From positions 1-47,320 of the forward strand of contig JABHXF010000054.1 in NCBI GenBank assembly GCA_018657385.1: a DNA stretch of 47,320 nucleotides, written 5' to 3'. The stretch is from Candidatus Woesearchaeota archaeon. GTDB lineage: Archaea; Nanobdellota; Nanobdellia; Woesearchaeales; DSVV01. Shown in pieces: positions 15,004 to 26,430 of this stretch. Made by a program: the position numbers and the translations under genes. Below the pieces are notes generated by a model. The model did no database searches, was not told the DNA's origin, and worked only from the letters and a program-made list of their open reading frames with translations. Each line of letters begins with the position of its first letter. Position 1 is the first letter of the stretch.

Positions 15004-16776
15004 TCAGAAATCCATAAGACTAATCTGTCCTTTTCTTTTATTTTCTTTTATTTTAATATCTTTCTCTAGAACCTTTTCACCAACTTGATCTTTAATAGCA
15101 ATTGCGGTTTTTTTACCAACAAGTTGTGCAAGAGTAATAATATTTGCTTTCTTAATATCTCCTAAATCTTTAATACCAAACTTATGCATTTTTCTTGCTC
15201 TTACTCTTCCAATACTTTTTAATTTCAACAATGTAAGTAATTCTTCTTTAACACCATACTTCATTCTTAATCTGATCTTAGTTAATTCAGCAACCATACT
15301 CTTTTTCTTATCACCAATATTTTTCACTCCTAATATTTTACCAAGTTCAATTGCTGCATACAATAGCCAATTTGCTGATTCTAGCTTTGCTCTTATTTCT
15401 CCTGGTCTAACATCATATTTTTCTAACAAAAACTCTTCATCATTCTCTTCAATCCAATCATTAAAAAATAAAGCTGTTTTGAAAGCATTTACATAATCAT
15501 CATATTCAGAATCAAATTGTGATGGCTCTAAAACAATCATATTACTTTCATATTTTACCATTTGTTCAATTATTTCATCATATTCTTTTACTTTAACTCT
15601 TAATTTTGGTCTTATTTCTAATGTAACACAGAGCATTTGTAAAATAGAAATTGGTAAAACATGTTTTGTTTTTGATCTTTTCATCCCACATATAATTTCA
15701 TAAGCTGTTAATGGATCAATGTATAATTCAGAAACTCTTCTTCCAAGTTCAGTTGCAGTAAACTTTTCTTCAACATCTTCAAATCCAGTTTCAGTAGATG
15801 AAAAACCTGTTTCAACTGCTGAAAGGCCAGCTGCTTCTTGATAAATTTGATCAGCTGACAGAAACTCATCACATATATCTCTTTTTTCTTCTTTAATTTT
15901 GTTGTCTTTATTTGATTTCTTATTTGCTTTTTCCCCAGCACTTACTTTTTCTTGCTTTAATTTCTCTGCTTTACCTTTTGCACTTTCAATAAATCCAAAC
16001 TTTTCTAACAGAATTAACATTTTATTGATTTTCTTCATTAATTCATACATATCTTTAAACTGATGCGCCCAAAAGGTTTTATTAAAGAAGTCCATGATTT
16101 GTTTTCTTGTCCTGACAAAATCAGTTGCTATTAAACTTAATATATAAGATCTTAATACAGGTTCAACTGCTAATTTAGAATAAATCTCTTCAGCATCTGC
16201 ATTGATAAAATCTTCCATTATTTTTTCTTTGCCTGCCTCAGTTGATGCTATTGTTATTGCTTCTCCCCATTTAGTTTTTCCTGGTCTTCCAGCTCTTCCA
16301 GCCATTTGATGATACTCTAAAACAGGAATTGGCTGCATTCCTCTTGGTCCATACCTACCAAGATTTTTTATGACAACTCTGAAAGCTGGAAGATCAAGTC
16401 CAAATGCAAGTGTTGGCGTGCATGAAATTATTTTTATAACATCTTCCCTAAATCCATCTTCAACTAATGTTTTTTGATTCATAGTAAGACCAGCATGATG
16501 AAATGCAATCCCTTGTTTTATGCATCTAGCAAGTCTTTCACATTGTTTAGTAGATTTTGGTAGAGAATTCAAAACTTTTTCACTTAATTCAATTAGTTTT
16601 CTTTTCTCAGCATCACTTATTTTTTTAACTTTATAGCTAATATCTTCTGCAGTTTTTTCTGCGGATCTTTTAGAATTGCAAAATACTAATGCTTGTTTTT
16701 CCATCTCTAAGGTGTCAAGAACTATATTAATTGTTGAATCTTTGTAATGTTCTTTTATTTGTATTGTTTTAGCCAT
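15004..16776 (-). CDS. Ski2/Hel308-type helicase lacking the first RecA domain
   Basis: A 590-residue protein with only the second half of a superfamily 2 helicase. Motif IV is ALVFCNSKRSAEKTA, motif V is TPTLAFGLDLPAF and motif VI is YHQMAGRAGRPG, all within the first 180 residues. A winged-helix and ratchet-like region follows, with a Lys-rich insertion near residues 275-305. The C-terminus has a helix-hairpin-helix, LKSIGRVRARKMHKFG. Hel308/Ski2 proteins normally begin with a RecA1 domain of about 200-250 residues (Walker A, DEAH box); none is encoded here. A TAG stop lies directly before the ATG, and structured elements fill the upstream gap. It is either half of a split helicase whose partner lies elsewhere, or a relic. 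Confidence 0.85.
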   Translation of the reverse strand: MAKTIQIKEHYKDSTINIVLDTLEMEKQALVFCNSKRSAEKTAEDISYKVKKISDAEKRKLIELSEKVLNSLPKSTKQCERLARCIKQGIAFHHAGLTMNQKTLVEDGFREDVIKIISCTPTLAFGLDLPAFRVVIKNLGRYGPRGMQPIPVLEYHQMAGRAGRPGKTKWGEAITIASTEAGKEKIMEDFINADAEEIYSKLAVEPVLRSYILSLIATDFVRTRKQIMDFFNKTFWAHQFKDMYELMKKINKMLILLEKFGFIESAKGKAEKLKQEKVSAGEKANKKSNKDNKIKEEKRDICDEFLSADQIYQEAAGLSAVETGFSSTETGFEDVEEKFTATELGRRVSELYIDPLTAYEIICGMKRSKTKHVLPISILQMLCVTLEIRPKLRVKVKEYDEIIEQMVKYESNMIVLEPSQFDSEYDDYVNAFKTALFFNDWIEENDEEFLLEKYDVRPGEIRAKLESANWLLYAAIELGKILGVKNIGDKKKSMVAELTKIRLRMKYGVKEELLTLLKLKSIGRVRARKMHKFGIKDLGDIKKANIITLAQLVGKKTAIAIKDQVGEKVLEKDIKIKENKRKGQISLMDF

Positions 16777-19884: not shown

Positions 19885-20061
19885 TGGCCCCGCCGTGACT
19901 TTCATCCAGATTCTTTCAAATCTGATTTTGAACACGGGACCACTCGATTTCTTCAACTGACGTTGCAGAATATTGTCGCAAGCGTCAATATATCAGTCGA
20001 GCACTCCAATTGTCCAGAATGCTTAACAAGTTAAGCAAGCACCAGACTGAGCTACGGGGCC
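19885..20061 (-). tRNA. tRNA-Ile(GAU) with three apparent introns
   Basis: Acceptor arms GGCCCCG (20061-20055) and CGGGGCC (19892-19886) pair perfectly, followed by discriminator A. The anticodon stem CTCGA/TCGAG encloses C-T-G-A-T-A, a 42-base canonical intron at 37/38 (19990-19949), then A38. The D-arm GCTC...GAGT holds an extra 32-34 bases (about 20040-20007) containing hairpin GCTTAAC-TT-GTTAAGC. The T-arm CCGTG-TTCAAA...T-CACGG holds an extra 28 bases (19926-19899) containing hairpin CAGATT...AATCTG. Removing all three leaves about 75 bases, a normal tRNA. The exact splice points of the two non-canonical introns may shift by a few bases. Confidence 0.85.
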
Positions 20062-20152: not shown

Positions 20153-20246
20153 GCCTCCGTAGCTTAGAGGTTGGAGCGTGCGGCTGTTATGTTGCTTATG
20201 CATCAAAGAAACCGCAAGGTCACCAGTTCAAATCTGGTCGGAGGCG
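20153..20246 (+). tRNA. tRNA-Asn(GUU) with 21-base anticodon intron
   Basis: Acceptor GCCTCCG/CGGAGGC, D-arm GCTT...GAGC and T-arm ACCAG-TTCAAAT-CTGGT. The anticodon stem TGCGG/CCGCA encloses C-T-G-T-T-A, intron 20190-20210, then A38, which gives anticodon GTT. The intron is at the canonical 37/38 site. A TATA-like TTTATAAAC lies about 30 bases upstream. Confidence 0.92.
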
Positions 20247-26066: not shown

Positions 26067-26182
26067 GCCCTGGTAGTGTAGCTCGGCACAGTTAATAATG
26101 CCCGTAGGGGTTTCGTTTACTGCGATTACTATCATGAAGCCCTGTCGAGGCTTCGACTCGGGTTCGAATCCCGACCAGGGCG
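26067..26182 (+). tRNA. tRNA-Asp(GUC) with D-loop intron
   Basis: Acceptor GCCCTGG/CCAGGGC, T-arm TCGGG-TTCGAAT-CCCGA, and anticodon arm AAGCC-CTGTCGA-GGCTT giving GTC. The anticodon loop has no intron. The D-loop carries about 41 extra bases (26088-26128). Removing them joins TAGCTCGGC to CTATCAT and restores a normal archaeal tRNA-Asp D-arm. The splice points could shift by one or two bases. Confidence 0.9.
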
Positions 26183-26331: not shown

Positions 26332-26430
26332 GGGCCGTTAGCTCAGCCTGGTATGTATTATTAATAATACACAGGAGAGAGCACTCGACTTTTAATCGAG
26401 TGGTCGCGAGTTCGAACCTCGTACGGCCCA
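26332..26430 (+). tRNA. tRNA-Lys(UUU) with D-loop intron
   Basis: Acceptor GGGCCGT/ACGGCCC with discriminator A, T-arm CGAG-TTCGAAC-CTCG, and anticodon arm CTCGA-CTTTTAA-TCGAG giving TTT. The D-arm GCTC...GAGC holds about 24-26 extra bases after AGCCTGGT. These contain the perfect palindrome TGTATTATTAATAATACA (26354-26371), which would fold as an intron hairpin. No anticodon intron. Confidence 0.92.

Follow-up and report, generated by a model that had tools for sequence, protein, structure and literature searches.

A tRNA-Ile(GAU) gene of a Candidatus Woesearchaeota archaeon is interrupted in the D-loop, behind anticodon-loop position 37 and in the T-loop, and the best reading of it, in which we place high confidence, is that of a tRNA gene carrying three introns in a DPANN genome. 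It lies in a stretch of 47,320 nucleotides (GCA_018657385.1, contig JABHXF010000054.1), here called the window. Introns of the same bulge-helix-bulge (BHB) type probably also interrupt rtcB, the gene for the ligase that would join the tRNA exons.

Layout of the tRNA-Ile(GAU) gene

The gene is read on the minus strand, which the first-pass annotation had left out, from 20061 to 19885, as exons of 20, 19, 22 and 14 nt with introns of 32, 42 and 28 nt between them (Table 1). Joining the exons gives GGCCCCGTAGCTCAGTCTGGTTGGAGTGCTCGACTGATAATCGAGTGGTCCCGTGTTCAAATCACGGCGGGGCCA, exactly the normal 75-base tRNA that had been expected from removal of all three insertions. The 42-base insertion at 37/38 was borne out in length and site, and both loop insertions hold the perfect internal hairpins ascribed to them; their size, earlier given as 28-34 extra bases, is precisely 32 nt in the D-loop and 28 nt in the T-loop. 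When the eight combinations of kept and removed introns were submitted to ARAGORN, tRNA-Ile(gat) was called only with all three removed, a removal that restores the cloverleaf and an intact anticodon. The 177-nt precursor folds with z = -5.6.

In its unspliced form the gene is matched in the window neither by ARAGORN nor by the Rfam tRNA model, and an Rfam search of the whole window genome (G000; 1.54 Mb, 60 contigs) misses it even at E <= 10. DPANN genomes can therefore seem tRNA-poor when they are not, because standard tRNA finders miss such genes. The isotypes given by ARAGORN are unreliable for intron-bearing genes, as illustrated by the tRNA-Asn of the window, called tRNA-Tyr. Family searches of the assembly, 90.4% complete, are the basis for regarding the interrupted gene as its only tRNA-Ile(GAU): among the tRNAs so found, no intronless copy is present.

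Table 1. tRNA genes of the window and parts of the tRNA-Ile(GAU) gene
Feature	Position	Strand	Remarks
tRNA-Ile(GAU) gene, three introns, 177 nt; spliced 75 nt	19885..20061	-	homologues in G001, G002, G009
Exon 1: acceptor 5' strand, D-stem, first part of D-loop	20042..20061	-	identical in G001
D-loop intron, 32 nt, 3' of G18G19; GTCT/GGAC central helix; bulges GG^T, AA^T; internal hairpin TGCTTAA/TTAAGCA	20010..20041	-	compensatory GCCT/GGGC in relatives
Exon 2: D-loop end, D-stem 3' strand, anticodon stem-loop up to position 37; anticodon GAT	19991..20009	-	
37/38 intron, 42 nt; relaxed BHB, central helix of two Watson-Crick pairs and tandem G.A	19949..19990	-	G001 orthologue canonical, CTGA/TCAG
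Exon 3: position 38 up to T-loop position 59	19927..19948	-	
T-loop intron, 59/60, 28 nt; canonical BHB: T-stem, TTCA/TGAA, bulges AA^A and AG^T, inner hairpin	19899..19926	-	recurrent in order
Exon 4: T60, T-stem 3' strand, acceptor 3' strand, discriminator A	19885..19898	-	
tRNA-Asn(GUU), neighbour; 21-nt intron at 37/38 (20190-20210)	20153..20246	+	
tRNA-Asp(GUC), probable; D-loop intron of ~40-45 nt, approximate boundaries	26067..26182	+	partial Rfam match
tRNA-Lys(UUU); 25-nt D-loop intron (26353-26377), CCTG/CAGG central helix, 7-bp inner hairpin	26332..26430	+	partial Rfam match

Exons are conserved while introns diverge

Ten relatives together with the window genome form a family set of 11 genomes. 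In a relative from the same genus (G001, Woesearchaeota SI074_bin25; tRNA contig JABJHR010000011.1), introns occupy the same three sites and the exons are identical at 75/75 bases, which confirms the three insertions first proposed for the window gene. The introns themselves are largely different in sequence, with lengths in the window genome and G001 of 32 vs 32 nt (D), 42 vs 15 nt (37/38) and 28 vs 47 nt (T); the two D introns share only their 3' end, CTGGACAA. Intron presence also varies across orthologues with conserved exons, from three in G001 to one in G009 (D-loop only) and none in the tRNA-Ile copy of G002. Nearly all other tRNA-Ile matches in a named collection come from Woesearchaeota or Nanoarchaeota MAGs, which fits the lineage among them.

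This conservation of exons over introns bears on whether the gene could be a decayed tRNA pseudogene with loop insertions, tRNA-Ile(GAU) being supplied by another, intact gene. Such a reading would be in keeping with a gene that escapes standard finders and with an incomplete assembly, and in eukaryotic tRNA genes insertions in the loops mostly mark pseudogenes (PMC4090602). However, all stems are intact, the insertions share their sites with those of the sister genome G001, where the exons have stayed identical although the introns have diverged, and the intact source that it calls for is not among the tRNAs found in the window genome. We consider it very improbable and reject it as largely refuted by the exon conservation.

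Geometry of the splice junctions

A BHB-like motif, on whose presence the first-pass annotation had made the two loop introns depend, was found at both the D and the T junction. A canonical BHB is formed at the T-loop junction: the 5-bp T-stem leads into the TTCA/TGAA central helix, with two bulges of 3 nt, and then into the inner helix of the hairpin. TTCA/TGAA stands at the exact position in 5/5 T-loop introns (L031, L048, L050, L053 and the window gene), all from tRNA-Ile genes that had not been selected for a T intron. At the D junction a 4-bp central helix is formed, GTCT/GGAC in the window gene, and the GCCT/GGGC of relatives preserves it by compensatory change; D-loop introns found without selecting for one have the GYCT/GGRC pairing in 6/6 cases. 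In the window gene the D junction has its outer and inner helices displaced from the ideal arrangement and is therefore a relaxed form. The 37/38 junction of the window gene, with 2/4 central Watson-Crick pairs and the tandem G.A, is no better than that of shuffled introns; its G001 orthologue has 4/4 central pairs. For the window gene alone the central-helix P is 0.02 to 0.03 at D and T, and because these single-gene values are modest, the case for the D and T introns rests on comparison across genomes.

Loop introns recur across the order

To this comparison the whole order contributes 353 genomes. A T-loop intron pattern that requires TGAA and leaves the outer four T-stem pairs free has matches in 31/353 of them, and its reversed control in 0. 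Since the pattern itself demands TGAA, the recurrence of this motif among the matches carries no evidential weight; the T-stem, left free in its outer pairs, closes 5/5 in 28/30 of the loci. With the paired positions left open, a D-loop intron pattern matches in 28/353 genomes (control 0), and position 16 co-varies (C-G or T-A) in 29/29 matches. At one and the same site, intron length ranges from about 15 to >130 nt. In some tRNA-Ile(UAU) and tRNA-Lys genes the D, anticodon and T arms all appear by eye to carry introns (e.g. L085, L097, L105). The first-pass annotation had called such an arrangement unusual for a DPANN-like genome: the three-intron tRNA-Ile is upheld, and within its order the phenomenon proves recurrent, not unique.

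The same data speak to a second possibility, namely that the 37/38 intron alone is spliced and that the D and T hairpins persist in an unusual mature tRNA as expansion segments. Both extras do fold as local hairpins, and their junctions lie off the classic position. The conserved TTCRANY T-loop would be lost in such a molecule, however, and the junctions have exact 2|1 bulge BHB pairing that recurs in unrelated families. Expansion segments also sit poorly with the spread of lengths at one site and with the known intron sites near 20/21 and at 59/60 (PMC4090602). We judge this possibility hardly credible and retain the reading with three spliced introns.

Several other interrupted tRNA genes were seen. 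The tRNA-Asn beside the tRNA-Ile gene of G001 (L025, about 1376-1490) has introns in the D-loop and anticodon stem, as against 37/38 only in the window tRNA-Asn. Two tRNA-Ser-like genes of the window genome (L017, L019) have apparent T-loop introns with TTCA/TGAA pairing. A woesearchaeal tRNA-Ile(GAU) located 3' of position 745 in L043 combines an apparent variable-loop intron (~26 nt) with a 37/38 intron. Apart from tRNA genes, the window holds on its minus strand (15004-16776) a helicase-like open frame apparently devoid of the usual N-terminal ATP-binding part, none being found just upstream.

Comparison with known multi-intron tRNAs

Introns at non-canonical positions are described mainly from Crenarchaeota and Thaumarchaeota (tRNAscan-SE 2.0, PMC8450103). 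In the Thermoproteales, Pyrobaculum islandicum tRNA-Pro(UGG) is interrupted at 25/26, 37/38 and 56/57, and P. calidifontis has 71 introns in 46 genes (PMC4090602, PMC8450103). Like the window tRNA-Ile, tRNAs of this group carry up to three BHB introns at canonical and non-canonical positions with relaxed motifs (PMC4090602, PMC8450103); the positions differ, being 19/20 and 59/60 for the loop introns of the window gene. Multi-intron tRNAs are not confined to the Thermoproteales, contrary to the earlier remark that they are known mainly from there: in Asgard genomes, introns occur in 92-95% of tRNA genes (2024, PMC11291895). In these Atabeyarchaeia and Freyarchaeia, which belong to a different phylum, more than half of the interrupted genes have several introns, often non-canonical (PMC11291895). 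The tRNA-Ile(UAU) of Cyanidioschyzon merolae likewise has three introns, in the D-, anticodon and T-arm (PMC9602550), but this red alga is a eukaryote with a SEN-type endonuclease, and an independent origin is likely. The tRNA-Ile described here is thus of a kind already known. What is new is its setting, because a broad-specificity endonuclease is apparently lacking and because of the introns in rtcB.

An apparently single alpha-type endonuclease gene

The splicing endonuclease gene endA (PF01974) was detected in 9/11 family genomes, G001 included, and in 56/60 sampled genomes of the order. The window's own assembly, 90.4% complete, gave no endA match, and the gene adjoining endA in G001 is absent from it as well. 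Because this neighbour is missing too, an assembly gap is the likely cause, more so than loss of endA by the organism.

Each of the nine genomes has one PF01974 match, even at E <= 10, with open frames of 182-202 aa. When the family proteins are aligned to EndA of M. jannaschii and of A. pernix, the catalytic residues Tyr, His and Lys prove conserved, an acidic L10 loop is retained, and nothing next to the active site corresponds to the A. pernix insert that gives rise to the Crenarchaea-specific loop. From its sequence, the family endonuclease appears to be the product of one alpha-type gene and to be devoid of the specificity loops considered necessary for such introns. The Thermoproteales differ in this respect, their endonuclease being (alpha-beta)2 with the Crenarchaea-specific loop.

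Reviews describe alpha4 enzymes as narrow in specificity and associate introns of relaxed or non-canonical type with the (alpha-beta)2 or epsilon2 forms (PMC6379350, PMC4090602, PMC12397907). Because the family appears to be without either enzyme or special loops, it makes this rule directly testable.

Among the best archaeal matches of G001 EndA is the alpha subunit of N. equitans, which acts jointly with a beta partner. The introns could then be real and yet be removed by a broad-specificity endonuclease that has two subunits or is divergent in some other way, not by a homotetramer of the detected alpha-type EndA. The literature, which gives the relaxed and the non-canonical substrates to (alpha-beta)2 and epsilon2 enzymes (PMC6379350, PMC4090602), is in line with this. 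We find this unlikely, although it deserves serious weight: against it stand the one PF01974 match per family genome at so permissive a threshold, the L10 loop resembling that of M. jannaschii and the missing crenarchaeal loop.

In the mechanism that we favour, the 177-nt precursor would present BHB introns at 19/20, 37/38 and 59/60, the splicing endonuclease would cut out each of them, and RtcB ligase would join the exons into the normal 75-nt tRNA, with one alpha-type endonuclease handling all three introns. The sequences themselves show the intron positions, the restored cloverleaf, the conservation of exons relative to introns, the geometry of the T junction, the covariation at the D junction, and rtcB in the window genome and endA in G001; cleavage and ligation, their order and the use of this single enzyme are what we infer.

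Stop-bearing insertions in rtcB

RtcB is present in 11/11 family genomes. In the window genome its gene (G000:C20:7180-8538) is interrupted by an insertion of 33 nt, and the genes of both G000 and G001 have one TAG and one TAA in frame. The G000 insertion separates DAHQGY from GFSIGG (L140:654-686, i.e. G000:C20:7253-7285; L141 in G001) and is BHB-like; its removal restores PDAHQGYGFSIGG...GGVGYDINC in a single open frame. Within the order, stop-bearing rtcB insertions of 30-33 nt were counted in nine genomes or more, seven beyond G000 and G001 being among the matches listed (L148-L154); this count is a lower bound, and introns of other lengths fall outside the search. They occupy several sites, all inside one stretch of ~35 codons that holds the DxHxGYGF and GxDxNC motifs. 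One removal restores DxHxGYGF...GGxGxDxNC in 8/9 genes. In the ninth (G249, L149), a second stop near GGIGFD persists after the first removal and a second removal of ~12 nt is needed; a further insertion of about this length recognized by eye, ATTAAACCTTAG, with GAGG/CCTT pairing, would explain this stop.

In 5/9 genes the inferred splice sites show 4/4 central pairs and bulges of 3 nt, and inner helices measure 5-10 bp; of the trials with shuffled introns, 0 to 0.5% attain what was observed. The junction of G000 and G001 is relaxed, with 2/4 central pairs and a 5-bp inner helix. These features point to BHB splicing of rtcB mRNA. Translational bypassing was rejected, since hopping from one GGA codon to the other would cost the protein the conserved YG, which intron removal restores. 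A different genetic code was likewise rejected: stops lie only within the insertion, plus the one in the second insertion of G249.

Between G000 and G001 the rtcB intron is identical at 32/33 positions, whereas the coding sequence as a whole is 83% identical and its four-fold sites 59% (P about 6e-7 if the four-fold rate applied to the intron). The difference between intron and four-fold sites suggests selection on the intron itself. Exon sequence within 30 nt of the intron is also conserved above average (90% identical), so the intron may instead have been gained recently. Only as a hypothesis might one speak of rtcB autoregulation.

As of 2009, cbf5 was the sole confirmed spliced archaeal mRNA (PMC2738675). 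The cbf5 pre-mRNA of Crenarchaeota resembles rtcB in that a BHB intron interrupts the coding gene of an RNA-processing enzyme (PMC2738675). It has a single site in one clade, whereas the woesearchaeal introns lie in the gene of the exon ligase itself, at several sites of a short active-site stretch. If true, the rtcB introns represent an archaeal BHB protein-coding host beyond cbf5 and a splicing machinery dependent on itself. A partial literature search found no prior report of such tRNA introns in Woesearchaeota or of rtcB introns.

A joint reading would run as follows: with stop-bearing BHB introns at conserved motifs of its mRNA, the ligase needs its own activity in order to be made, RtcB output is tied to splicing capacity, and a single loop-less alpha-type EndA serves both rtcB mRNAs and three-intron tRNAs. 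We advance it tentatively, doubting it slightly more than we believe it.

In many genomes of the order, rtcB is represented by two or three separate matches, for which contig breaks, paralogues or frame-shifting introns are possible explanations.
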